From: Streptomyces globisporus
Lineage (GTDB): Bacteria; Actinomycetota; Actinomycetes; Streptomycetales; Streptomycetaceae
Assembly (NCBI GenBank): GCA_014649555.1
Contig: BMTG01000017.1
Coordinates: 62,001-126,000 of the forward strand
Reading direction: 5' to 3'
DNA length: 64,000 bases
Shown here: one piece after another, positions 33,552 through 47,578 of the stretch
Numbering within the stretch: the first letter of the stretch is position 1
How the letters are laid out: every line of letters starts with the position of its first letter
Notes under the pieces: model-generated
Databases searched by the model: none
Told to the model about the DNA's origin: nothing
What the model saw: the letters and a program-made list of their open reading frames with translations, nothing else
Made by a program: the position numbers and the translations under genes

Positions 33552-33803
33552 GTGGGCCTCACTTCACTCTCCCTGCTCGTCCTGTCCTTCGTCCTCGTGG
33601 TCGACGAACCGGCGGACCGCGCGGGTGGCAGCCCCGGCCGCTCCGGGCTCGTTCCCGACGCCTGGCTCGCCGGCCACGCCGACCTGGACATCCCCACCCT
33701 CCGGGAAGCCGCCACGCTGCCGCTGCCCACCCCCGACGAGCAGTTCGACGAGCTCGTCTCGGCCGTCGTCGCCCGGATCCGCGACGGTCTCAGAGCCGGC
33801 TGA
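33552..33803 (+). pseudogene. C-terminal fragment, possibly of a TetR-type regulator
   Basis: A GTG at 33552 opens 83 residues, VGLTSLSLLVLSFVLVVDEP, then LVPDAWLAGHADLDIPTLRE and FDELVSAVVARIRDGLRAG. The helix pattern and the closing FDxxVxxVVxRIRDGL resemble the ligand-domain end of TetR-like regulators (TetR_C), but no DNA-binding part precedes it; the DNA repair gene ends 11 bases upstream. It overlaps the 3' end of the XdhC gene by 14 bases. I take it as the stump of a deleted gene. A complete small protein cannot be excluded. Confidence 0.4.
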
Positions 33804-34935
33804 CGACCCGCCGTTCCGGGCCGGGCTCCCGATGGATGGGCTCCGCTCCCCCGGTCAGCGGCAGGCCCGTGCCGCCGCGCCGGGCCGCGACGATCTCCGC
33901 CGCGATGGACAGCGCCGTCTCCTCCGGCGTACGGGCTCCGAGGTCCAGGCCGATGGGCGACCGCAGCCGGTCCAGTTCACGGTCGCCGAGTCCGGCCTCG
34001 CGCAGCCGCCGGGTCCGGTCCTCGTGGGTGCGGCGCGACCCCATCGCCCCGACGAACGCGGCGGGCATCCGCAGCGCCTCCGTGAGCAGCGGCACGTCGA
34101 ACCGGGCCTCGTGCGTGAGGACGCACAGCACGGTACGGGCGTCGGTGCGGGTACGCCGCAGATAGCGGTGGGGCCAGTCGACGACGACCTCGTCGGCCTC
34201 GGGGAACCGGGCGGGCGTGGCGAAGACGGGCCGGGCGTCGCACACCGTCACATGGTGGCCCAGGAACTTGCCGGCCCGGACCAGCGCGGCGGCGAAGTCG
34301 ACCGCACCGAAGACGATCATGCGGGGCGGCGGGACGCTGGTCTCGACGAGCAGGGTGAGCCCGCCGGGGCAGTGCGAGCCGTCCTCGGAGAGGGCGACGG
34401 TGCCGGTGCGGCCGGTGTCGAGCAGGGCCGAGGCTTCGGCAGCAGCCGTACGGTCCAGCTCCGGGTGGCAGCCGAGCCCGCCCTCGTGGGAGCCGTCGGC
34501 GCGGACGAGCAGCGCCCGCCCCAGGAATCCGGCCGGGCCGTCCACCACCCGGGCAATGGCCGCCGCCTCACCGGACACCGCGGCGGACAGCGCGGCCCGC
34601 AGCACCGCACGCTCCGGTGCGCCGGACCGTACCGGCGTGACCATGATGTCCAGGACGCCGCCGCAGGTCAGGCCGACGGCAAAGGCGTCCTCGTCGCTGT
34701 AGCCGAAGCTCTCACGCACACTCTCGCCGGTGGCGAGGGCCTGCGCGCACAGTTCGTAGACCGCGCCCTCCACACAGCCACCGGAGACCGAGCCGATCGC
34801 CGTGCCCTCGCTGTCGACGGCGAGGGCCGCCCCCGGCCCGCGCGGCGCGCTGCCGCCGACGGAGACGACGGTCGCGACCGCGAACTCCCGGCCCTCCGCC
34901 ATCCATCGGTGCAGCTCACCGGCGATGTCAAGCAT
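33790..34935 (-). CDS. XdhC/PaoD-family molybdenum cofactor insertion protein
   Basis: 381 residues. The N-terminal XdhC_CoxI domain reads FAVATVVSVGGSAPRGPGAA, GSVSGGCVEGAVYELC, LTCGGVLDIMVTPV, with the conserved Cys residues in SGGCVEG and TCGG. The C-terminal Rossmann domain (XdhC_C) has MIVFGAVDFAAALVRAGKFL, HVTVCDARPVFATPARFPEA, VGAMGSRRTHEDR and LRSPIGLDLGARTPEETA. These proteins bind Moco, add the sulfido ligand and load it into the hydroxylase. It is the last gene of the Pao-like operon, and its start overlaps the stop of the large subunit by 8 bases. Confidence 0.9.
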   Translation of the reverse strand: MLDIAGELHRWMAEGREFAVATVVSVGGSAPRGPGAALAVDSEGTAIGSVSGGCVEGAVYELCAQALATGESVRESFGYSDEDAFAVGLTCGGVLDIMVTPVRSGAPERAVLRAALSAAVSGEAAAIARVVDGPAGFLGRALLVRADGSHEGGLGCHPELDRTAAAEASALLDTGRTGTVALSEDGSHCPGGLTLLVETSVPPPRMIVFGAVDFAAALVRAGKFLGHHVTVCDARPVFATPARFPEADEVVVDWPHRYLRRTRTDARTVLCVLTHEARFDVPLLTEALRMPAAFVGAMGSRRTHEDRTRRLREAGLGDRELDRLRSPIGLDLGARTPEETALSIAAEIVAARRGGTGLPLTGGAEPIHREPGPERRVVSRL

Positions 34936-37081
34936 CCACCGCTCCCCCTGCGGGCTCCGGCCCCGTCGCGGCGAGGACCCGGTCGGGGCGGATCGGCAGA
35001 TCCCGGTGGCGCACGCAGGTGGCGTGCCAGACCGCGTTGGCGACGGCCGCCGCCGCGCCCACGATGCCGATCTCCCCGACGCCCTTGATGCCGACCGGGT
35101 CGTCCGGGTCGTGGTCGTCCACCCAGTCCACCTCGATGGCGGGGGTGTCGGCGTGCGTGGCGACGTGGTAACCCGCGAGGTCGGGGGCGTAGTGACCGCC
35201 GGTGTTGCGGTCGCGGACCGCCTCCTCGTGCAGGGCCATGGAGATGCCCCAGGTCATCCCTCCGACGAGCTGGTTGCGGGCGGTGAGCGGGTTGACGATC
35301 CGGCCCGCCGCGAAGACGCCCAGCATGCGGCGCACCCGGATCTCGCCGGTGGCGGCATCCACGGCGACCTCGGCGAACTGCGCGCCGAACGAGTGGCGTT
35401 CCTTCCGCGCGAGCGCCCCGAGGGCCTCGGTGGTGTCGGACCGTACGGTGATCCCCTCCGGCGGGATCGACGTGGTCATCGCGAGCCGCTCGCGCAGTTC
35501 GGCGGCGGCCGCCGTGACCGCCCAGGCCCAGGAGCGGGTGCCCATGGATCCGCCGGCGATCATCGCGGGGCCGAAGTCGCTGTCGCCGATGCGGACCCGG
35601 ACCTGTTCGGGTGCGGTCTCCAGCGCGTCGGCGGCGATCAGGGTGAGCGCGGTGCGGGCTCCGGTGCCGATGTCGGCGGCGGTGATCCGTACGGTGAAGG
35701 AGCCGTCGGCCTCGGCCGTGACCAGGGCCGTCGAGGGGGCGGCCCCGGCGCCGAAAGAGGCCGCCGCCGTGCCGGTGCCCAGCAGCCAGCGCCCTTCCCG
35801 CCGGACACCGGGGCGCGGGTCGCGGTCCGCCCAGCCGAACCTGCGTGCTCCTTCGCGGAAGCAGGCCGCGAGGTTGTTGCCGGCGAACGGGAGTCCCGAG
35901 ACGGGGCCGACGTCCGGCTCGTTGCGCAGGCGCAGTTCGATCGGGTCGATGCCGCCGCGTTCGGCGAGTTCGTCGAGGGCCGCCTCGATGGCGAAGGACC
36001 CCGGGGCCTCCCCCGGCGCCCGCATCCAGGTCGGGGACGGTACGTCGAGCCGGACGACGTGGTTGGCGGTGCGATGGGCGTCGGCGTCGTACAGCACCCG
36101 GGCGACACCGGCGCTGGGCTCGACGAACTCGTACACCGTGGACGTCTGGTTCAGCGATCGGTGCTCCAGGGCCAGCAGCCGGCCGTCGGGCGCCGCGCCG
36201 AGCCTGACCCGCTGGGTGGTGGGGCTGCGGTAGCCGCCCAGCGAGAACGTCTGACGCCTGGTCAGCACCACGCGTACCGGGCGTTGCAGGGCGGTGGCGG
36301 CCATCACGGCGGACACCTGGTGGGCGCGCAGGCCCTTGCTGCCGAAGCCGCCGCCGATGTGTTCGGAGCGAACCCGCACCGAGGAGGCGTCGAGCGAGAA
36401 CATCGTGGCCAGTTCGCCCTGGACCCAGCCGGCGCCCTGGTTGGAGTCGACGACCTCCAGCCGGCCGCCCTCCCACCGGGCGGTCGCCGCGTGCGGTTCC
36501 ATCATGCTGTGCTGCTCTTCGGGGGTGGTGTACTCCGCGTCCACCACGAAGGCGGAGGCGGCCAGTTGTGCCTCCAGGTCACCCTTCTCCGTCTCGGCGG
36601 GCATATGGCCGGCGGCGGCGTAGGCGCCGGGGTGGTCCGGGTGGAGCGCGGTGTCGTGCGGTTCGCTGTCGTACGTCACCACGAGCGCTTCGGCCGCTTC
36701 CCTGGCCTCCTCGGGGGTCTCGGCGACGACGAGGGCGACCGGCCAGCCGGCGAACGGCACCCGGTCGTTCTGGAAGACGGCGCTCGTCGGGTCCGGCGGG
36801 GTGCCGAGCATGCCGACGTAATCGGTGTGCAGGCGGGGGGCGTTGCCGTGGTGGAGCACGGTGAGCACGCCCGGCATGGCGAGGACCGGGTCGGTCTCCA
36901 CGTCCAGGATCCGGCCACGGGTGACGGTGGACAGCACCAGCCAGCCGTGGGCCAGGTCCGCGAAAGGGATCTCGCCCGCGTAGCGTGCCGCGCCGGTGAC
37001 CTTCTCACGGCCCTCGATACGGGTGCGGGCGGTGCCGACGGCTCCGCGGAGCGCCGAGGGGCCCGGGGTGGTGGTCGTCAT
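34928..37081 (-). CDS. Molybdenum hydroxylase large subunit (PaoC/YagR-like aldehyde oxidoreductase)
   Basis: 717 residues, close to the 732 of E. coli PaoC. The Moco-binding signature GGGFGSK is at 243-249, MRAPGE at 353-358, and the catalytic glutamate in GVGEIG at about 667-672 (Glu670), which acts as base in all xanthine dehydrogenase-family enzymes. It oxidises aldehydes or N-heterocycles by hydroxylation with water. No signal peptide is seen on any subunit here, so the complex should be cytoplasmic, unlike E. coli PaoABC. Genes overlap by ATGA. Transcription from 38657 is likely controlled by the divergent TetR protein. Confidence 0.9.
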   Translation of the reverse strand: MTTTTPGPSALRGAVGTARTRIEGREKVTGAARYAGEIPFADLAHGWLVLSTVTRGRILDVETDPVLAMPGVLTVLHHGNAPRLHTDYVGMLGTPPDPTSAVFQNDRVPFAGWPVALVVAETPEEAREAAEALVVTYDSEPHDTALHPDHPGAYAAAGHMPAETEKGDLEAQLAASAFVVDAEYTTPEEQHSMMEPHAATARWEGGRLEVVDSNQGAGWVQGELATMFSLDASSVRVRSEHIGGGFGSKGLRAHQVSAVMAATALQRPVRVVLTRRQTFSLGGYRSPTTQRVRLGAAPDGRLLALEHRSLNQTSTVYEFVEPSAGVARVLYDADAHRTANHVVRLDVPSPTWMRAPGEAPGSFAIEAALDELAERGGIDPIELRLRNEPDVGPVSGLPFAGNNLAACFREGARRFGWADRDPRPGVRREGRWLLGTGTAAASFGAGAAPSTALVTAEADGSFTVRITAADIGTGARTALTLIAADALETAPEQVRVRIGDSDFGPAMIAGGSMGTRSWAWAVTAAAAELRERLAMTTSIPPEGITVRSDTTEALGALARKERHSFGAQFAEVAVDAATGEIRVRRMLGVFAAGRIVNPLTARNQLVGGMTWGISMALHEEAVRDRNTGGHYAPDLAGYHVATHADTPAIEVDWVDDHDPDDPVGIKGVGEIGIVGAAAAVANAVWHATCVRHRDLPIRPDRVLAATGPEPAGGAVDA

Positions 37082-38070
37082 CGGGCGTCCTCCCCGGCGA
37101 GTTCGGTCAGGACGGAGACCACGAGGTTACGCATGAGGGTCACCTTGTATCCGTTGTGGGGCAGCGGCCGGGCGGCGGCCAGCTCGGCGTCCGCGGCGGC
37201 GGCGAAGGTCGCGCCGTCGGCCGGTGCGCCGGTCAGGACGGCTTCGGCCGCGCGGGCGCGCCAGGGGCGGGAGGCGACGGCCCCGAGGGCGAGGCGCGCT
37301 TCGCGTACGCGGCCGTCCTCGACGGTGAGCGCGGCGGCGACGGAGCCGATGGCGAAGGCGTACGAGGCGCGCTCGCGCACCTTGCGGTAGCGGGAGCGGA
37401 CGGCGACGGGCGCGGCGGGCAGGGTCACATGGGTGATCAGCGCGCCGGGCGGCAGGGCGGTCTCCCGGTGCGGGGTGTCGCCGACGGGGAGGTAGAAGTC
37501 GGTGATCGGGACTTCGCCGGGGCCGTCCGCGCTCTCGTAGGAGACGACAGCGTCGAACGCGGTGAGCGCCACCCCCATGTCGGAGGGGTGCACGGCCACG
37601 CAGTGGTCGGATGCGCCGAGGACCGCGTGGTTGTGGTGCTCGCCCGCGACAGCGGGGCAACCGGTGCCCGGGGCCCGCTTGTTGCAGGGCTGGGAGAGGT
37701 CGGTGAAGTAGCCGCAGCGGGTGCGCTGGAGGAGGTTGCCGCCGACGGTGGCCATGTTGCGCAGCTGCCCGGAGGCCCCGGCGAGCAGGGCCTGGGTCAA
37801 CGCCGGGTAGTGGCGGCGGACTTCGGAGTGGACGGCGAGGTCGCTGTTGGTGACGGTCGCCCCGATGCGCAGGCCGCCGTCCGCCGTGGTTTCGATGCGG
37901 TCCAGGGGGAGTTCGCGCACGTCGACGAGGAGGGCGGGGCGTTCCACGCCGGTCTTCATCAGGTCGACGAGGTTGGTGCCGCCGCCGAGGTAGCGCGCGT
38001 CCGGGTCGGCGGCGAGGAGAGAGACCGCGCCGCTGACGTCATGGGCGCGCTGGTAGCCGAATTCCCTCAT
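37078..38070 (-). CDS. Molybdenum hydroxylase FAD subunit with an extra Fe-S cluster site (PaoB-like)
   Basis: 330 residues. FAD binding: YLGGGTNLVDLMK (27-39) and the phosphate loop NMATVGGNLLQRTRCGYF (105-122). Four cysteines lie at 119, 129, 138 and 157 (RTRCGYF, SQPCNKR, GTGCPA, SDHCVAV). This is the pattern of PaoB, whose extra [4Fe-4S] cluster is absent from ordinary xanthine dehydrogenases. A C-terminal CO_deh_flav_C domain follows. It shuttles electrons between the 2Fe-2S subunit and an acceptor. It overlaps both neighbours by ATGA, so the three subunits are translationally coupled. Confidence 0.9.
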   Translation of the reverse strand: MREFGYQRAHDVSGAVSLLAADPDARYLGGGTNLVDLMKTGVERPALLVDVRELPLDRIETTADGGLRIGATVTNSDLAVHSEVRRHYPALTQALLAGASGQLRNMATVGGNLLQRTRCGYFTDLSQPCNKRAPGTGCPAVAGEHHNHAVLGASDHCVAVHPSDMGVALTAFDAVVSYESADGPGEVPITDFYLPVGDTPHRETALPPGALITHVTLPAAPVAVRSRYRKVRERASYAFAIGSVAAALTVEDGRVREARLALGAVASRPWRARAAEAVLTGAPADGATFAAAADAELAAARPLPHNGYKVTLMRNLVVSVLTELAGEDAR

Positions 38071-38657
38071 GCGGCGGCCTCCTCGGCGGCGTGCTTCCCG
38101 GCCGCGCTTCCCTCTGCGGCGTGTTCCCCGGCGGCGCGGGCGACGGCCTGGACGATCGAGACGTAGGCGCCGCAGCGGCACAGGTTGCCGCTCATCCGCT
38201 CGCGGATCTCCTCGGGCGTCAGCGGTGGCGGCCCCGCTTCGGGAGCCGGGTCGTCGGTGACGGCGCTCGGCCAGCCGGCCGCGTGTTCCTCGATGACGGC
38301 GATGGCCGAGCAGATCTGGCCGGGCGTGCAGTAACCGCACTGGTAGCCGTCGAGGTCGAGGAATGCCTGCTGGACGGGGTGCAGTTGGTCGCCCTCGGCC
38401 ACGCCTTCGATGGTGGTGATCTCGCGGCCCTCGGCCGCGACCGCGAGGCTGAGACAGGAGACGACGCGGCGCTGGTCGACCAGGACCGTACAGGCGCCGC
38501 ACTGCCCCTGGTCGCAGCCCTTCTTGGTGCCGGTGAGGTCGAGGCGCTCGCGCAGGGCGTCGAGGAGGGTGGTGCGGTGGTCGATGGGCAGGTGGTGCTT
38601 CTCGCCGTTGATGTTCAGGGTGATCGCACTGGACGTCGACGAGGGCGCTGGGGCCAT
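38067..38657 (-). CDS. Molybdenum hydroxylase [2Fe-2S] subunit (PaoA-like)
   Basis: 196 residues. The plant-ferredoxin-type cluster uses Cys48, 53, 56 and 68 (GCDQGQCGACTVL, VVSC); the second cluster uses Cys107, 110, 160 and 162 (QCGYCTPGQ, NLCRCG). The N-terminus, MAPAPSSTSSAITLNINGEK, lacks the twin-arginine leader found on E. coli PaoA. An Ala/Glu/His-rich tail with two near-repeats (GEHAAEGSA, GKHAAEEAA) extends past the usual end. It is the first gene of the operon; two palindromes for the TetR protein lie 90-135 bases upstream. Confidence 0.92.
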   Translation of the reverse strand: MAPAPSSTSSAITLNINGEKHHLPIDHRTTLLDALRERLDLTGTKKGCDQGQCGACTVLVDQRRVVSCLSLAVAAEGREITTIEGVAEGDQLHPVQQAFLDLDGYQCGYCTPGQICSAIAVIEEHAAGWPSAVTDDPAPEAGPPPLTPEEIRERMSGNLCRCGAYVSIVQAVARAAGEHAAEGSAAGKHAAEEAAA

Positions 38658-40787: not shown

Positions 40788-41076
40788 ATGGTCACCCCGA
40801 TACTGATCGGGCTGCTGGGCGGACTGATCACCGTTGTCTCACCCTGCATCCTGCCCGTCCTGCCGGTGGTGTTCCTGGCGGGCGGCACCGGGAAGGGCGA
40901 GAACGCGGGCCAGCCGGCCCGGTCCCCCGGCACAGCCGGAGCCGGCGACGAAGACGATCAACGTGACCGGGTCGCCGACGCTGTACCGTCTCACCGACGA
41001 CGAGAACGCCCGCACCGCACGCCTCGAACTGCGCGTGGGCGAGGGCCTCCAGGCCTACGTCTTCACCTTCGGGTGA
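40788..41076 (+). pseudogene. dipZ: dipZ/ccdA remnant: both gene ends joined by an internal deletion
   Basis: ATG 40788 begins VTPILIGLLGGLITVVSPCI, then LPVLPVVFLAGG, the first helix of CcdA/DipZ with its conserved SPCILPVLP cysteine. After ~50 residues the frame is lost. In another frame, up to TGA 41074-41076, the DNA reads KTINVTGSPTLYRLTDDENA and VGEGLQAYVFTFG, which is the last ~40 residues of DipZ-type fusions (C-terminal beta domain, ending YxFTFG). The ~500 residues between, including the other helices and the thioredoxin domain, are gone; the join is near 40935-40960. The stump overlaps the 3' end of the lyase gene by 22 bases. Confidence 0.8.
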
Positions 41077-42611
41077 GCTTCGAGGGCCGGCCCCGCACCC
41101 GAGTCCGCCCACAGCTCGGCAAACCGGTCCAGCAGTCCGGCGGCCGTCGCCACGTCGTCCGTCAACGGCCGGTCGGCCGACTCCGCGTCGAGCACCGAGG
41201 CCGCCAGTTCGAAGGCGCGGCCGACGGGCAGTTCCGGGTCGAGGCGCAGTTCCCGCTGGCGCAACGCCCTTACGGCCGCGACGAGTTCGCACCCCACGAC
41301 GAGCCGGAACGCCTCGCAGGCCCGCAGGGTCTGCCGCGCTCCCAGCGAAGCGAAGCTGGCCTGCTCCTCGACGCCCCGCGAGAGCACGGCGTGCCCGAGC
41401 GAGGCGGGTGCGGAGTAGGCGCGCAGGTCGCCGAGGGCCGCCCCGGCCGCGTATTCGAGGATCATCACGCCCGAGGACGCGGGCTCGCCGTCCGCGAGGA
41501 AGGGGCGCAGCCGGGTGAAGCCCGGTTCGTTGAGGGTCGAGAGGCGGGAAGTGGAGAGCCGCGCCACCTGAGTGACCGCCAGCCTGAAGTGGTCGAGCGA
41601 CAGAGCGAGTTGGGCGAGGTAGAAACCGCCGTGGTGGTAGGCCGCCATGTCGTCGGCGGAGATCAGCGGGTTCTCGGCCGCCGCGTTGATCTCGACTTCG
41701 AGGACCCCTTCGAGCGCGTCCGCAGCATCGTGCGCGGGGCCGTGGATCTGCGGCAGACAGCGGAAGCCGTACGGGTCCTGGATCCGGCCGAGCGGGGGTG
41801 TCGGGCGGTCGGGGGCGCCGAGCAGCAGCCGCATCCGCTCGGCGACCGCGGACGAACCGGCGTGCCGCCGCGCCTCGTGGACGGGCAGCGCGTAGGCCTC
41901 GTAGCTGCCGTCGATCGCCATCAGGGAGAGGGCCGCCACCACCTGGGTGGCGGCGATCAGGGCACGCAGTTCGTGCAGGGCGAGGGCGGACTGGCCGAGG
42001 GTGAGGGCGTTGCTGCTGATCAGCGCGAGGGCGTCGTTGTTGTCGAGCGGCTGTGGTTCGGGGGCGGTCCCCGCGCCCTGCCAGGGGTGTTCGCCCGCCA
42101 GCGCCAGGCCCATCTGGGCGAGCGCCGCGATGTCGCCGGTGCCGACCGAGCCGAGGGCGTTGACCTTCGGGTGGGCGCCCGTCTCCAGCGCGTCGCAGAG
42201 CGCGGTGACGACGGTGGGGCGCAGCCCGGCACCGCCCGCGAGGAGCTGGTTGGCGCGGACGGCGAGCATGGCGCGGACCTGCCGCGCGGGAAGCTCCTCG
42301 CCGATCGCTCCGGCGTGGCTGCGCAGCAGGCGCAGTCCGTGGTCGGCGGCCGCCTCGGTGGGCACGGACTCATTCCGGTTCGCGCCGACGCCGGTGGAGC
42401 GGCCGTAGACGCGACCCCAGGAGGCGATCTCCCGCGCGGCGTCCCACGAGGCTTCGACGCGCTTCAGGCCCTCGGCCGCCGGAACGGGCCTGGCGACGGA
42501 TTCGGCCATGCGTACGACATCTGGGACCATCAGGCGGCGGCCGTCGAGGATGACGACCGCATCGTTGTCATCAGCCACCCTGTCCGCGATATGAGACGAC
42601 ATCAGGTGCAT
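41055..42611 (-). CDS. HAL/PAL-superfamily lyase lacking the Ala-Ser-Gly MIO triad
   Basis: 518 residues, the normal length for histidine ammonia-lyase. Family landmarks: Tyr69 in VYGRSTGVGANRNES, the helix SHAGAIGEELPARQVRAMLA, the Asn-rich LDNNDALALISSNALTLGQS, PQIHGPAHDA, and EINAAAENPL. At the cofactor loop the family sequence GSVGASGDLAPL is replaced by GSVGTGDIAAL (residues 154-164): one residue shorter, with Gly157-Thr158-Gly159 where Ala-Ser-Gly should cyclise to MIO. Normal MIO formation is therefore unlikely. It lies divergent from an OpuC-type quaternary-amine importer, with a 140-base gap. Ergothionase, which removes trimethylamine from ergothioneine without MIO, belongs to this superfamily, so a betaine-type substrate is a fair hypothesis. 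Confidence 0.8.
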   Translation of the reverse strand: MHLMSSHIADRVADDNDAVVILDGRRLMVPDVVRMAESVARPVPAAEGLKRVEASWDAAREIASWGRVYGRSTGVGANRNESVPTEAAADHGLRLLRSHAGAIGEELPARQVRAMLAVRANQLLAGGAGLRPTVVTALCDALETGAHPKVNALGSVGTGDIAALAQMGLALAGEHPWQGAGTAPEPQPLDNNDALALISSNALTLGQSALALHELRALIAATQVVAALSLMAIDGSYEAYALPVHEARRHAGSSAVAERMRLLLGAPDRPTPPLGRIQDPYGFRCLPQIHGPAHDAADALEGVLEVEINAAAENPLISADDMAAYHHGGFYLAQLALSLDHFRLAVTQVARLSTSRLSTLNEPGFTRLRPFLADGEPASSGVMILEYAAGAALGDLRAYSAPASLGHAVLSRGVEEQASFASLGARQTLRACEAFRLVVGCELVAAVRALRQRELRLDPELPVGRAFELAASVLDAESADRPLTDDVATAAGLLDRFAELWADSGAGPALEAHPKVKT

Positions 42612-42753
42612 TTCCTCCCCTGTCGGACGTTCCGTCTTGCCCTGCGGCCGGCCGTAACCAGGGATTTACGCCCGGGTGGCGACGACCTATTGACAATCTA
42701 TTCAGCCACCGAGAACTCTGCATGATGATATGCAGCCGGGCAAGGGACTCCTC

Positions 42754-43803
42754 ATGATCCAATTCGACAAGGCCCACAAGCCCTTCCCGAACGGCACGAC
42801 CGCGGTGCACGACCTCACGCTCGACCTGCCGGAAGGGGGCGTGACCGTCCTCGTCGGATCTTCCGGTTGCGGCAAGACGACCACGCTCCGGATGATCAAC
42901 CGGATGGTCGAGCCGACCTCCGGGTCGATCCGGGTGGGCGGCAAGGACGTCCTGGAGCAGGACGCCGCCAAGCTGCGCCGCTCCATCGGTTACGTGATCC
43001 AGCAGGCCGGGCTCTTCCCGCACCGCACCGTCCTGGACAACATCGCGACCGTACCGCTGCTGCTCGGCTGGGGCCGCAGGAAGGCACGGGCGCGGGCGGT
43101 GGAACTGCTGGAGACGGTCGGCCTCGCCGCAGACGCGGGGAAACGCTACCCGCACCAGCTCTCGGGCGGTCAGCAGCAGCGCGTCGGGGTGGCCCGCGCA
43201 CTCGCCGCGGACCCTCCGGTCCTCCTGATGGACGAGCCCTTCGGTGCCGTCGACCCGGTGGTCCGCACCCAGCTCCAGGACGAACTGCTCCGCCTTCAGC
43301 GTGAGTTGAACAAGACCATTGTCTTCGTCACGCACGACATCGACGAGGCCGTGCGCCTCGGGGACCGCATAGCCGTCTTCCGTACCGGCGGCCATCTCGT
43401 CCAGTGCGCCTCCCCCGCCGAACTGCTGGCCCGCCCGGCGGACGCGTTCGTCGCGGACTTCCTGGGCGCCGAGCGCGGTCTGAAGCTGCTGTCCCTCACG
43501 ACGCTCGAAGAGGTCGCCCAGGGACCCGCGCCCGAAGGCGCCCGCTGGCAGCTGACCCTGGACGCCGGCCGCAGACCGCTGGCCTGGCGCGACAGCGAGA
43601 GCAAGGGCGAGGCGGAGATACCCGTCCGACCCCTGCGGGACAGCGACTCGCTGCTCTCCGCGCTCAACGAGTCGATCGCCGCGCCGAGCGGCCTGGTCGC
43701 CCGGGTCGACGCGGACGGCGTCCTCACCGGCGTCACCTCCCGCGAGGACATCCACGCCCGCGCCGGCCAGGTGCACAGCGCGGCGAGCACGGTGGCGGCG
43801 TGA
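42754..43803 (+). CDS. Quaternary-amine ABC transporter ATPase (OpuCA/ProV-like)
   Basis: 349 residues. ABC motifs: Walker A GSSGCGKTT, Q-loop VIQQAGLFPH, signature LSGGQQQRVGVARAL, Walker B PVLLMDEPFGAVDP, and the switch His in FVTHDIDEA. The C-terminal ~100 residues hold only one CBS-like half (SLLSALNESIAAPSGLVARV, DGVLTGVTSREDI), whereas typical OpuCA has a pair that senses ionic strength. ATG 42754 is chosen over ATG 42730 since AAGG lies upstream and the family starts MIxFxxxxK. It energises import of betaines, choline or a related cation, by family. It heads the opuC-type operon and is divergent from the unusual lyase. Confidence 0.9.
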   Translation: MIQFDKAHKPFPNGTTAVHDLTLDLPEGGVTVLVGSSGCGKTTTLRMINRMVEPTSGSIRVGGKDVLEQDAAKLRRSIGYVIQQAGLFPHRTVLDNIATVPLLLGWGRRKARARAVELLETVGLAADAGKRYPHQLSGGQQQRVGVARALAADPPVLLMDEPFGAVDPVVRTQLQDELLRLQRELNKTIVFVTHDIDEAVRLGDRIAVFRTGGHLVQCASPAELLARPADAFVADFLGAERGLKLLSLTTLEEVAQGPAPEGARWQLTLDAGRRPLAWRDSESKGEAEIPVRPLRDSDSLLSALNESIAAPSGLVARVDADGVLTGVTSREDIHARAGQVHSAASTVAA

Positions 43804-44450
43804 GTGTCGACTGGTCGTGGATAGCCGACCACACCGACGATCTCACCACCCTGACGCTCTCCCACCTCCAGGCCGCGCTGACCGCCGTCCTCCTCGGCCT
43901 GCTGATCTCGCTCCCTCTGGCCGTGCTGGCCCACCGGGTACGCCGGCTGCGCGGGCTGCTCCTCGGTCTGTCGAACGTCCTGTTCACCATCCCGTCCATC
44001 GCGGTGTTCGTGCTCCTCCTCCCGGTCAGCGGGCTGACCCGGACGACCACCGTCATCGGCCTGACGATCTACACGCTCGTCGTGCTCCTGCGGAACACCG
44101 TCGAGGGCCTGGACTCCGTCCCCACCCGGACGAAGGAGGCCGCGAAGGCCATGGGCACCCGGCCGCTGCGCACCCTGCTCACCGTCGAACTGCCCCTCGC
44201 GCTGCCCGTGATCATGGCGGGGGTACGGATCGCGACGGTGATGGCGATCTCCCTGGTCTCCGTGACCACGTACATCGGCGACGGCGGGCTCGGGCAGCTG
44301 TTCACCGACGGATTCCAGCGCAACTTCCCCACCCCCGTCATCGTCGGCGTCGTCCTGACCCTGCTCCTGGCGCTCGTCGCGGACGCGCTGCTCGTCACCC
44401 TCCAGTACGTCCTGACGCCGTGGAACCGCCGGCAGAAGCAGGGGGCCTGA
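43800..44450 (+). CDS. Quaternary-amine ABC transporter permease 1 (OpuCB-like)
   Basis: 216 residues from a GTG overlapping the ATPase stop (GTGA). There are five to six membrane helices and the OpuC permease motifs: LGLSNVLFTIPSIAVFVLLL, EGLDSVPTRTKEAAKAMGTR and the EAA loop PLRTLLTVELPLALPVIMAG, which contacts the ATPase. The end is RRQKQGA. Together with the second permease it forms the membrane channel. The operon order ATPase-permease-permease-binding protein is that of OpuC/BilE-type systems. Confidence 0.9.
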   Translation: MSVDWSWIADHTDDLTTLTLSHLQAALTAVLLGLLISLPLAVLAHRVRRLRGLLLGLSNVLFTIPSIAVFVLLLPVSGLTRTTTVIGLTIYTLVVLLRNTVEGLDSVPTRTKEAAKAMGTRPLRTLLTVELPLALPVIMAGVRIATVMAISLVSVTTYIGDGGLGQLFTDGFQRNFPTPVIVGVVLTLLLALVADALLVTLQYVLTPWNRRQKQGA

Positions 44451-44453
44451 ACC

Positions 44454-45125
44454 GTGTACGAACTCCTCAAGGGCCTCGGCTCCTGGCTGGTCGGGGCGGA
44501 GCAGTGGACCGGCTCCGACGGCATCGGCCACCGGCTCGCCGAGCACCTCCAGTACTCCCTGCTCGCCACGCTCGTCGCAGCCGCCATCGCCCTGCCGGTC
44601 GGTCTGCTCATCGGCCACACCGGACGCGGCGCGTTCGTCGCGATCAACCTGTCGAGTTTCGGCCGGGCGCTGCCCACGGTCGGTCTCGTGGTCCTCGTCT
44701 TCCTCGCCAGCGGTCTGTCGATGTGGCCGGTCTACATCGCGCTGGTGGCGCTCGCGGTCCCGTCCATCGTGACCAACACGTACGCCGGGATGACGGCGGT
44801 CGACCCGGAGGTGCGGGACGCGGCGCGCGGCCAGGGCATGCGCTGGTACCAGGTGCTCTTCCAGGTCGAACTGCCCCTGGCGCTCCCTCTGATCATGACC
44901 GGGCTGCGGCTCGCGCTCATCCAGGTCGTCGCGACGGCGACCATCGCCGCGTACGTCTCCTTCGGCGGGCTCGGCCGGTACGTCTTCGACGGGCTCGCCC
45001 AGCGCGACCTCGTGCAGGTCCTCGGCGGGGCCGTGCTCGTGGCGCTCGTCGCCGTCGTCCTCGACCTCGCGCTCTCCGCCCTCCAGCGCTTCCTCTTCCG
45101 CCACCGCCCCGCCCCGCAGTCCTAG
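44454..45125 (+). CDS. Quaternary-amine ABC transporter permease 2 (OpuCD-like)
   Basis: 223 residues from the GTG at 44454, 3 bases after the previous stop. Membrane helices include LQYSLLATLVAAAIALPVGL, SSFGRALPTVGLVVLVFLAS, YIALVALAVPSIVTNTYAGM. The EAA loop is DPEVRDAARGQGMRWYQVLF then QVELPLALPLIMTGLR, and the late helix IAAYVSFGGLGRYVFDGLAQ is typical of this permease class. It pairs with permease 1. The two are similar in their second halves, as expected for a duplicated pair. Confidence 0.9.
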   Translation: MYELLKGLGSWLVGAEQWTGSDGIGHRLAEHLQYSLLATLVAAAIALPVGLLIGHTGRGAFVAINLSSFGRALPTVGLVVLVFLASGLSMWPVYIALVALAVPSIVTNTYAGMTAVDPEVRDAARGQGMRWYQVLFQVELPLALPLIMTGLRLALIQVVATATIAAYVSFGGLGRYVFDGLAQRDLVQVLGGAVLVALVAVVLDLALSALQRFLFRHRPAPQS

Positions 45126-45138
45126 GAGCCAGCCCCTC

Positions 45139-46098
45139 ATGAACCGCGAGAACCGCATCAACCGCATGAACCGCAGGGCTCTCCTCGGCGGGCTCTTCGC
45201 CGCCGCCACCGTCCCCGCGCTCGCCTCGTGCAGCAGCGGCATCACCTCTCTCGAAGGTGACGGGGCCGGGGGCGGTGGCGGCGGCTCCAGCAAGGGCGGC
45301 GTCACCATCGGCACCGCCAACTTCACCGAGAACCAGGTCCTCGGGTACCTCTACGCCGCCGCGCTCGAAGCGGCCGGGGTGAAGACCACCGTCCGTCCCA
45401 ACCTGGGCACCCGCGAGATCCTCATCCCCGCACTCAAGGGCGGCGACATCGATCTGCTGCCGGAGTACCAGGGCGCGCTGCTGCACTACCTCGACACCAA
45501 GGCCACGGCCACCGAGGAGGGCACGATGCAGAACGCCCTCGCGATGCTCCTGCCGCGCGGCCTGCAGATCCTCCCGTACGGCGAGGCGGAGAACGCCGAC
45601 GCCTTCGCGGTGACCAGGGAGACCGCCGACGAGTACGGCCTGAAGTCGCTGGCCGACCTGGCGAAGCACAACGGCAAGCTCGTCATCGGCGCGGCCCCCG
45701 AGGTCAAGAAGCGCACGGTGGGCTCGGTGGGCCTCAAGGAGGTGTACGGCGTCGAGTTCAAGGAGTTCAAGTCTCTCGACTCCTCGGGCCCGTTGGTCAA
45801 GGGAGCCCTGAAGAAGGGCGATGTGGACGTGGCGAACCTGTTCACCACCGACACCGACATCGCCGCCGAGGGCTGGGTGGTCCTCACCGACCCGAAGAAC
45901 CTCATCCCCGGCCAGCACGTCGTCCCGCTGATCGCCGACCGCAAGGCCGACTCGACGGTCCGCAAGGCGCTCGCCCGGCTCGGGTCCGTGCTGACGACGA
46001 AGGACCTCACCGAGCTGAACCGCCTGGTGGACAAGGACCGGAAGGACCCCGAGGACGTCGCGTACGACTGGGCGGCGCTCCACGGCATCAAGAAGTAG
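45139..46098 (+). CDS. Lipoprotein substrate-binding protein of the quaternary-amine transporter (OpuCC-like)
   Basis: 319 residues. The leader has NRRALLGGLFAAATVPALASC with lipobox LASC (Cys31) and twin arginines ahead of the hydrophobic part, so Tat export and lipid anchoring are likely. A Gly/Ser linker leads to the OpuAC-type fold: VTIGTANFTENQVLGYLYAA, LGTREILIPALKGGDIDLLP, EYQGALLHYLD, then LFTTDTDIAAEGWVVLTDPK. Tyr and Phe residues needed for an aromatic cage around a trimethylammonium group are present (for example EYQGAL). The ligand cannot be fixed from this; glycine betaine, choline, carnitine and ergothioneine are family options. Confidence 0.9.
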   Translation: MNRENRINRMNRRALLGGLFAAATVPALASCSSGITSLEGDGAGGGGGGSSKGGVTIGTANFTENQVLGYLYAAALEAAGVKTTVRPNLGTREILIPALKGGDIDLLPEYQGALLHYLDTKATATEEGTMQNALAMLLPRGLQILPYGEAENADAFAVTRETADEYGLKSLADLAKHNGKLVIGAAPEVKKRTVGSVGLKEVYGVEFKEFKSLDSSGPLVKGALKKGDVDVANLFTTDTDIAAEGWVVLTDPKNLIPGQHVVPLIADRKADSTVRKALARLGSVLTTKDLTELNRLVDKDRKDPEDVAYDWAALHGIKK

Positions 46099-46168: not shown

Positions 46169-47578
46169 ATGGCAGCCGAAGACCTGGTGGAGCGCCGCTC
46201 CATCGATGTCGTCCCGGACGACGAACGGCACGGGACCGCGTTCAGTCAGTTCACTCTCTGGCTCGGCGCCAACCTCCAGATCACGGCGGTGGTCACGGGC
46301 GCGCTGGCCGTCGTCTCCGGCGGTGACGTGGTGTGGTCGGTCGTCGGCCTGCTGCTGGGCAATCTGCTCGGCGGCGCGGTCATGGCCCTGCACTCCGCGC
46401 AGGGCCCGAAGCTGGGTCTGCCCCAGATGATCCAGTCCCGGGCCCAGTTCGGGGTGAAGGGCGCGGTCGTCCCGCTGCTGCTGGTCATCCTCATGTACGT
46501 AGGGTTCTTCGCGAGCGGCAGCGTGCTGGCCGGCCAGGCGACGGCCCGGCTCATGCACACGGACGACACGGCCGGCATCGTCGTCTTCGCGGTGGTGACG
46601 GCCGTCATGGCGGCGGTCGGCTACCGGATCATCCACACCCTGGGGCGGGTGGCGAGCGTGATCTGCGCGCTGGCCTTCGTCTATCTGGGCATCCGCCTGC
46701 TGGACCGGATCGACCTCTCGGCGCTGCTCGGCGACGCCCACTTCGACCTGCCGATGTTCCTGCTGGCGGTGTCGCTCTCGGCGTCCTGGCAGCTGGCCTT
46801 CGGACCGTACGTCGCGGACTACTCGCGCTATCTGCCGCGTACGACGCCGGGGCGGTCCACGTTCTGGTGGACGCTGTCGGGGTCGGCCATCGGCTCGCAG
46901 TGGTCGATGACGTTCGGGGTGCTCGTGGCGGCGACCGCCGGGGACGCCTTCCTCACGGACCAGGTCGGCTATGTGGTCGGCCTCGGCGGCGCGGGGCTGA
47001 TCGCGTCGTTCCTCTACTTCGTGATCGCGCTGGGCAAACTGACCATCAATGTGCTGAACACGTACGGCGGGTTCATGTCGATGGTGACGAGCATCAGCGG
47101 ATTCCGGGGTCAGCGGACGCTGTCGCAGCGTGGCCGGGCCGTGTACATCGGGCTCATCATGGTGGCGGGGACAGCACTGGCGCTGCTGGGCAAGGACAGC
47201 TTCCTGACGTCGTTCAAGGACTTCCTGCTGTTCCTGCTGACGTTCTTCACCCCGTGGTCGGCGATCAACCTGGTCGACTACTACCTGATCTCACGGGAGC
47301 GGTACGACATCCCGGCGCTCTCCGACCCCCGGGGCCGCTACGGCGCCTGGCGCTGGGACGCGCTCACCGTCTACGGGATCGGCGTCCTCGCCCAACTCCC
47401 TTTCCTGGTGACGCACTTCTACACGGGCCCGCTGGTGGAACCGCTGGGCGGCGCGGACGTCTCCTGGATCGTCGGCCTCGTGGTCCCGGCGGCCCTTTAC
47501 TGGCTGCTGGCCCGCCGGGACACCCAACACATCCCCGAGGAAACGGTGTACGTCCTCGCCTCACCGCGCGAGCGGTGA
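46169..47578 (+). CDS. NCS1-family permease (purine/cytosine type)
   Basis: 469 residues with about 12 membrane helices. NCS1 landmarks include FTLWLGANLQITAVVTGALA, GPKLGLPQMIQSRAQFGVKG, SWQLAFGPYVADYSRYLPRT, TINVLNTYGGFMSMVTSISG and TFFTPWSAINLVDYYLISRE. Members import cytosine, allantoin, hydantoins or vitamins with Na+ or H+. It follows the OpuC-type operon by 70 bases on the same strand and may be co-transcribed. Both Tat-exported amidohydrolases at 4-7 kb act on similar ring compounds but are too far away to assume a link. A long hairpin terminator follows. Confidence 0.88.
   Translation: MAAEDLVERRSIDVVPDDERHGTAFSQFTLWLGANLQITAVVTGALAVVSGGDVVWSVVGLLLGNLLGGAVMALHSAQGPKLGLPQMIQSRAQFGVKGAVVPLLLVILMYVGFFASGSVLAGQATARLMHTDDTAGIVVFAVVTAVMAAVGYRIIHTLGRVASVICALAFVYLGIRLLDRIDLSALLGDAHFDLPMFLLAVSLSASWQLAFGPYVADYSRYLPRTTPGRSTFWWTLSGSAIGSQWSMTFGVLVAATAGDAFLTDQVGYVVGLGGAGLIASFLYFVIALGKLTINVLNTYGGFMSMVTSISGFRGQRTLSQRGRAVYIGLIMVAGTALALLGKDSFLTSFKDFLLFLLTFFTPWSAINLVDYYLISRERYDIPALSDPRGRYGAWRWDALTVYGIGVLAQLPFLVTHFYTGPLVEPLGGADVSWIVGLVVPAALYWLLARRDTQHIPEETVYVLASPRER

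Follow-up and report, generated by a model that had tools for sequence, protein, structure and literature searches.

We analyzed a 64,000-bp stretch of DNA from Streptomyces globisporus (C17:62001-126000 in a genome of 8.25 Mb; hereafter the window) that carries an enzyme of the aromatic-amino-acid-lyase fold back to back with an OpuC-type ATP-binding cassette (ABC) importer. The lyase has no Ala-Ser-Gly triad where superfamily members with the methylideneimidazolone (MIO) electrophile carry it. The lyase/OpuC unit is real and well conserved, and its enzyme is a variant of the MIO-free type of lyase exemplified by ergothionase, placed in another metabolic context. Our favored reading, which we hold with even confidence, is that the unit belongs as a satellite to the urocanase section of the histidine utilization (hut) regulon and feeds urocanate into it, with hercynine as the most likely substrate. 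More tentatively, and with somewhat less than even confidence, we propose that importer and MIO-free lyase form an undescribed entrance to histidine catabolism (hercynine to urocanate and trimethylamine), and that this importer class is joined to two different MIO-free lyases. A search of open-licence literature named neither a hercynine lyase nor the promoter element TTGAC-N-CTATTCA described below. We infer the activity and substrate of the lyase, its product urocanate and the importer ligand from the comparisons that follow.

The short-loop lyase and its relatives

Residues 154–160 of the lyase read G-S-V-G-T-G-D, one residue fewer than the MIO loop GSVG-ASG-D, just as the preliminary description of this DNA had claimed. 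The same loop, GSVGTGD followed by Ile or Leu, was present in 80/80 named loci, the top-ranking 80 of at least 544, all from Streptomyces and related rather than independent; with all 80 in agreement, a sequencing error does not explain the short loop. The closest of them (lyase identity 92–95%) came from Streptomyces fimicarius, S. durocortorensis, S. cyaneofuscatus and their kin. To place the loop in the superfamily, we used an alignment of 48 rows, 47 of them tallied, including 24 window-type, 7 ergothionase-type and 12 MIO rows. T158 and D160 were kept in all 24 window-type rows, and position 159 was Gly in 21 and Ala in 3. The position equivalent to T158 held Glu, Gln or Ala in the 7 ergothionase-type rows and Ser in 12/12 MIO rows. 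Relative to the 12 MIO rows compared, the loop lacked one residue in both the window type and the ergothionase type, and both had S-x-N-A where MIO enzymes have N-G-T, with the Asn replaced by Ser or Gly in 4/24 window-type rows. Such lyases cannot form MIO in the known way.

The rest of the active-site frame was retained. Y69, H99, Q278, R284, F330 and E415 (Y53, H83, Q277, R283, F329 and E414 in HutH) were invariant in 24/24 window-type rows, and we take the HutH-frame residues Y53, H83, R283 and E414 to be those that bind imidazole and carboxylate. We also compared the positions of K63 and K383 of the ergothionase structure 6s7j, presumably its catalytic lysines. The K63 position was Arg in 22, Lys in 1 and Leu in 1 of the 24 window-type rows and Lys in 7/7 ergothionase types, and the K383 position was Tyr in 23 and Asn in 1, compared with Lys in 5/7 ergothionase types.

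A tree of 41 rows, built with the loop columns excluded, resolved into three blocks: the window type (18 rows, support 100/100), ergothionase with an Azospirillum type (9 rows, 99/95; the ergothionase clade proper, 100/99), and the MIO enzymes with a Klebsiella/Sodalis type (14 rows, 100/98). In this tree the lyase fell off the MIO side and on the ergothionase side of the 100/98 split, yet in a clade of its own. It grouped neither with MIO aminomutases, a placement that the preliminary description had considered, nor with phenylalanine or tyrosine ammonia-lyases. Searching with an AlphaFold model of the lyase (mean predicted local distance difference test score 86.7), Foldseek returned ergothionase 6s7j as the first match by E-value (2.9e-30, with 26% identity in the alignment). 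Chains of histidine ammonia-lyase (HAL) came next at 6e-29, and the TM-scores of some of them matched or exceeded that of ergothionase. Because the HAL E-values are close and the TM-scores equal or higher, the structure search leaves ergothionase and HAL undivided.

The likeness to ergothionase proposed in the preliminary description stands in part, although on the comparisons made the lyase is not itself an ergothionase. A passage in PMC13405746 describes ergothionase as having no MIO. In common with ergothionase (6s7j from Treponema denticola and the Burkholderia type), the lyase has the PF00221 fold, a loop one residue short (SSIG-EG-D in 6s7j), S-x-N-A for N-G-T, Q-D, the Tyr/His/Arg/Glu frame and its side of the tree split. 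It differs in its low identity, its own clade, Tyr for K383 and mostly Arg for K63, and also in its setting, with an OpuC-type importer and a promoter element common with hutU. Thiourocanate hydratase and thiohydantoin desulfurase reached their cut-offs in 0/61 genomes, 23 of them lyase-bearing, with weak sub-cut-off desulfurase matches in two genomes (G014 and G031). This sample comprised 37 genomes of the same genus, 15 of the same order outside the genus, and more distant ones. With HutH the lyase has in common the fold and the imidazole- and carboxylate-binding residues, and its product probably enters the same pathway. Unlike HutH, it has no Ala-Ser-Gly and a shorter loop, and it fails the HutH equivalog TIGR01225 (277.7 bits vs a cut-off of 539.15). 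The genome has a true HutH elsewhere, with a normal Cys-Ser-Gly triad; in all, it carries two PF00221 genes besides the window lyase, C1:778718 and C19:48496, with CSG and ASG triads, respectively.

Pairing with the importer and with hutU

The lyase gene and the importer operon are divergent, with 118 bases between them. The importer is complete, with an ATPase, two permeases and an OpuAC-domain substrate-binding protein (SBP) in a single run at 42730–46098, confirming the back-to-back arrangement noted earlier from the sequence (Table 1). Because contig ends hide neighbors, we counted gene neighbors separately on the 62 of the 80 named loci with full flanks, using our own heuristic gene caller and our own identity cut-offs. 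The OpuC ATPase was in range in 55 of these loci, hutU (within 10 kb) in 54 and an RpiR gene in 56; 62 had OpuC or hutU, and 47 had both. Among 21 loci outside the genus, all four OpuC genes were present in 15 (8 family codes) and hut genes in 6. Our genome has 7 OpuAC-domain matches, and by our own arithmetic an OpuC operon would lie within 10 kb of a random gene in roughly 1–2% of cases. Set against 55/62 related loci and 15/21 loci outside the genus, this expectation places the pairing beyond chance, and the suggested co-occurrence of lyase and OpuC genes is strongly conserved. Lyase copies at 46% identity or more occurred in 23/61 genomes, including 18/37 of the same genus (our own included). 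In a class-wide sample, at least 30/394 genomes had a window-type match clearly above the HutH level (29 above 400 bits and one split into two pieces); as only matches at E ≤ 1e-90 were listed, this count is a minimum.

Table 1. Features of the lyase/OpuC unit and the adjoining permease gene (window positions).
Feature	Position	Strand	Basis
MIO-less aromatic-amino-acid-lyase-fold enzyme, 518 aa (alternative start codon at 42602 possible)	41055..42611	-	PF00221, 365 bits
G157-T158-G159 codons where MIO A-S-G would be	42135..42143	-	loop alignment
TTGACAATCTATTCA, promoter/operator-like element in lyase/OpuC gap, common with hutU	42690..42704	+	genome pattern scan
OpuC-type ABC ATPase	42730..43803	+	PF00005; TIGR01186 proV 307.6 bits, under cut-off 326.6
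OpuC-type permease 1	43800..44450 (about)	+	PF00528
OpuC-type permease 2	44454..45125	+	PF00528
Lipoprotein SBP, non-EgtU pocket	45139..46098	+	PF04069, 181 bits
NCS1-family permease directly downstream of importer	46169..47578	+	PF02133

In our genome the hut cluster, together with its rpiR, is located on contig C7, separate from the lyase/OpuC unit. The two places are connected by a candidate promoter element. The pattern TTGAC-N2..5-CTATTCA had exactly two matches in the 8.25-Mb genome, one located 64 bases ahead of the hutU match and the other, TTGACAATCTATTCA, in the lyase/OpuC gap, and a reversed-pattern control had none. Across the 37 same-genus genomes all 35 matches fell at one of these two sites, with 28 preceding hutU and 7 in the lyase/OpuC gap. 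In the named loci, the strict element occurred in 60/62 hutU upstream regions and 12/66 lyase/OpuC gaps and nowhere else in 1,554,697 bases; it was found in 0/14 lyase upstream regions lacking OpuC. When up to 4 substitutions were allowed, 65/66 lyase/OpuC gaps carried a degenerate element, compared with 1/66 plain shuffles. A search for words of at least 14 bases common to the lyase/OpuC and hutU upstream regions gave nothing useful, nor did an ungapped consensus scan; these ungapped searches missed the element because its spacer differs by two bases. In our own reading of this common element, urocanase and lyase/OpuC would form one regulon. RpiR is its likely regulator, given the position of the gene and a half-site, CTATTCAG, upstream of rpiR.

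The preliminary description had regarded the pathway as partial, with no downstream step. The element suggests otherwise: the downstream enzyme of the lyase is probably HutU, encoded on another contig behind the same promoter element.

Substrate, importer pocket and competing explanations

In the mechanism we propose, the importer would take up a histidine-derived amino acid, and the lyase would remove its alpha-amine without MIO, as ergothionase does, through a base-assisted 1,2-elimination by a conserved Tyr. By analogy with HutH and ergothionase, His99 and Glu415 would hold the imidazole and Arg284 the carboxylate. The product, urocanate, would then pass through HutU, HutI and HutF/AllC towards glutamate. 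The likeliest substrate would be hercynine (N-alpha-trimethylhistidine), yielding urocanate and trimethylamine, because a quaternary amine should leave without MIO. Hercynine is an intermediate of ergothioneine synthesis, and our genome carries egtD. Urocanate is a more likely product than thiourocanate because the urocanases are ordinary and neither marker of thiourocanate breakdown was found over cut-off in the 61 genomes. Our own HutU scored 873.7 bits against the hutU model, for which 375 is the cut-off, and 635.2 against the thiourocanate hydratase model, for which it is 930; the urocanases of three further lyase loci (L171, L035 and L051) were ordinary in the same way.

The importer does not match the known ergothioneine importer closely. 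According to a passage in PMC9732360, the EgtUC pocket consists of F293, Y341, Y419, Y443, N339, K242, T296, R379, E375 and T275. We compared these positions in 29 complete SBP rows, having dropped 6 of 35 rows as incomplete. In EgtUC numbering, R275, Y293, D341, E375, R379 and F419 were present in 29/29 rows; position 339 was Asp in 23, Asn in 5 and Ser in 1, and position 443 was Gln, Glu or Ala. Like the EgtU, OpuC and OsmF importers, the window importer has an ATPase, two permeases and an OpuAC-type SBP, with E375 and R379 of EgtUC kept. Unlike EgtU and OsmF, its SBP is changed at K242, T296, T275, Y341 and Y443 and scores 82.7 bits to the OsmF model NF049931 (cut-off 400). With 2/4 aromatic cage positions kept and D341 and R275 in every complete row, the pocket departs from that of EgtUC, and on these changes we set the simple EgtU reading aside.

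Several observations weigh against the hercynine reading. The SBP has lost two of the four EgtUC cage aromatics (Y341 to Asp in 29/29 rows, Y443 to Gln, Glu or Ala) and has Arg at 275. A pocket without the known quaternary-amine cage argues against a plain betaine ligand, and its residues would fit a carboxylate-bearing ligand with N-H donors better than a trimethylammonium group. The SBP pocket and a hercynine substrate are therefore in conflict, although a histidine-like ligand bound in a flipped orientation is possible. The exact promoter element was absent in 8/37 same-genus genomes, and in the 18 lyase-bearing ones it was present in the lyase/OpuC gap of 7 and absent in 11. A control pattern gave 4 matches in the same 37 genomes. 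No exact element was found in 15/15 same-order genomes outside the genus, all 15 with hutU; one distant genome (G054) had 2 element matches and no hutU match; and no CTATTCA lay near our own HutH within the 20 kb read. In the full-flank loci, hutU was out of range in 8/62 and the OpuC ATPase in 7/62. Outside the genus, egtABCD adjoined the lyase in only 2/21 loci, and a cysteine-dioxygenase/amidohydrolase/LacI unit found in 10/21 is unexplained by the hercynine model.

A rival explanation that we consider unlikely, though less so than the others, gives the lyase a different sulfur-free imidazole amino acid as substrate, be it mono- or dimethylhistidine, a histidine with some other N-substituent, or plain histidine handled without MIO, and has the product feed the Hut pathway. 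Such a substrate would fit the same regulon and imidazole-binding frame, and Asp341, Asp339 and Arg275 of the SBP would accommodate a carboxylate together with an ammonium or imidazolium carrying N-H donors. In Pseudomonas, PMC8871633 describes a hutTu-hutXWV-hutH1 insert in the hut operon and reports a role for the HutXWV ABC system in histidine uptake; the adjoining histidase, HutH1 of Pseudomonas fluorescens, is dispensable. Against this explanation stand the normal HutH of our genome and the HutH genes in the same cluster in four other loci (L171, L172, L174 and L176). Moreover, we know of no established mechanism for ammonia loss from histidine without MIO.

That the unit imports ergothioneine and, through an ergothionase, removes trimethylamine to make thiourocanate, as the preliminary description had suggested among other substrates, now seems improbable. 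It would agree with the short loop, the basic residue at the K63 position (Arg 22, Lys 1 of 24) and the leading E-value of ergothionase in Foldseek, as well as with the egtABCD genes adjoining the lyase in 2 loci and the thiol-dioxygenase-like gene seen in 10/21. However, the lyase lies outside the ergothionase clade with Tyr at the K383 position, the EgtUC cage is not kept, and the two AllC proteins compared (from L051 and our own genome) score far below the ErtE cut-off; ErtD was not searched genome-wide. By contrast, an ergothionase-type gene in Burkholderia arboris (L194) has as neighbors genes for ErtD, ErtE, thiohydantoin desulfurase and thiourocanate hydratase (the last at 1050 bits), all of which exceed their cut-offs; P. 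denitrificans also has thiourocanate hydratase. With ordinary urocanases and the two marker families in 0/61 genomes, we set the ergothioneine pathway aside.

A slightly smaller probability attaches to the lyase having lost catalysis and acting in the hut regulon as a sensor or helper. Its defining electrophile is lost, and an RpiR gene is in range in 56/62 full-flank loci, but the other positions of the active site that we compared do not vary even between deeply diverged sequences, and the lyase is paired with its own importer. The least credible explanation is that Gly-Thr-Gly cyclises to an ethylidene variant of MIO in an ordinary ammonia-lyase: the triad G157-T158-G159 is present and D160 is kept in 24/24 rows, but the loop is shorter than in the MIO rows, its third residue is Ala in 3/24, ergothionase with a loop of equal length has no MIO, and HAL with its Ser changed to Thr is nearly inactive.

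Neighboring genes, other MIO-less lyases and implications

The NCS1-family permease directly downstream of the importer is a possible member of the lyase/importer module. It was within range in 18/62 full-flank Streptomyces loci, and it is 54% identical to a permease beside hutU, OpuC and a lyase on a Klebsiella plasmid. On the other side of the unit in this clade, window positions 33790–38657 hold an operon of xanthine-dehydrogenase type, in which three subunit genes and one XdhC-like gene were identified by eye from their translations; its large subunit is in range in 4/80 named loci. In a second same-genus clade (about 48–58% identity; L049, L050, L056–L058, L187, L188 and L190) the binding protein adjoins the lyase, and in several of these loci a conservon-like kinase/roadblock/GTPase set (named by eye) stands between the binding protein and the remaining OpuC genes.

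Gene order outside the genus is best illustrated by L171, which reads egtA-egtB-egtC-egtD, cysteine dioxygenase, amidohydrolase, lacI, lyase, OpuC, iclR, HutH, hutU, allC. L172 is its mirror image and has hutF and hutI in addition. These two non-Streptomyces actinomycete genomes hold egtABCD, lyase, OpuC, HutH and hutU together; EgtA, EgtB and EgtD of L171 exceed NCBIfam cut-offs, and its EgtC was called from glutamine-amidotransferase Pfam matches and position. In L051 the lyase is followed by OpuC-hutU-allC-hutF-hutI, co-directional. The cysteine-dioxygenase-like gene (PF05995), amidohydrolase-2-like gene (25.1 bits, Pfam cut-off 26.4) and LacI regulator recur beside the lyase in L171:6412-8984, L178–L182, L186, L055, L051, L172 and L197, and in a Nonomuraea locus the dioxygenase unit is present with no OpuC in range. 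This unit perhaps serves sulfur handling.

A second kind of MIO-less lyase is carried by Klebsiella pneumoniae plasmid pRGF99-1-214k (L207:1-11301), where an NCS1 permease, hutU, an OpuC importer, the lyase, HutD, HutC and HutF are clustered. In addition to the NCS1 permease (54%), the SBP (41%) and ATPase (62%) are identical in part to those of the window. The loop of this lyase, GSVG-YLIATAH, has three residues fewer than MIO enzymes and no Ala-Ser-Gly. A tblastn search listed 694 plasmid records, of which 200 are from Klebsiella and 164 reach at least 90% identity at their best place. In Sodalis and Rhizobium anhuiense a lyase of this type directly follows an OpuC operon whose SBP pocket is as in the window except at position 419. 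The Klebsiella-type lyase falls on the MIO side of the tree, and in 58% of 200 bootstrap trees the MIO rows come out as one side. From this placement a separate loss of MIO in the Klebsiella-type lyase appears likely, and if our reading holds, one importer class is tied to two kinds of MIO-free lyase.

Further variants were seen. Rhizobium lusitanum (p_1, L198:5001-11422) has another MIO-less type, with the loop GSIG-AAD, next to an OpuC operon. The SBP of this operon keeps T275, T296, N339, Y341, E375, R379, D381 and Y443 of EgtUC; by these residues the locus is a better candidate for an ergothioneine importer and lyase than the window pair. L186:13972-15414 encodes a divergent lyase on a very long branch (3.05), with GSGA-AGE at the MIO place, that adjoins lacI and lies one gene from an RpiR-like gene near hutU. 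In Paracoccus saliphilus p242883 (L193:1060-9599) an ergothionase-type lyase (GSVG-EAD) directly follows a hut cluster with hutH and hutU, beside tripartite ATP-independent periplasmic (TRAP) transporter genes, and may make urocanate because its one urocanase is ordinary.

Annotated records name such proteins histidine or aromatic amino acid ammonia-lyases, and our finding suggests how additional 'histidases' not needed for growth on histidine might be tested. If the proposal is true, a branch for breaking down a betaine or N-methyl histidine is present in many Streptomyces genomes and links ergothioneine metabolism to histidine catabolism.

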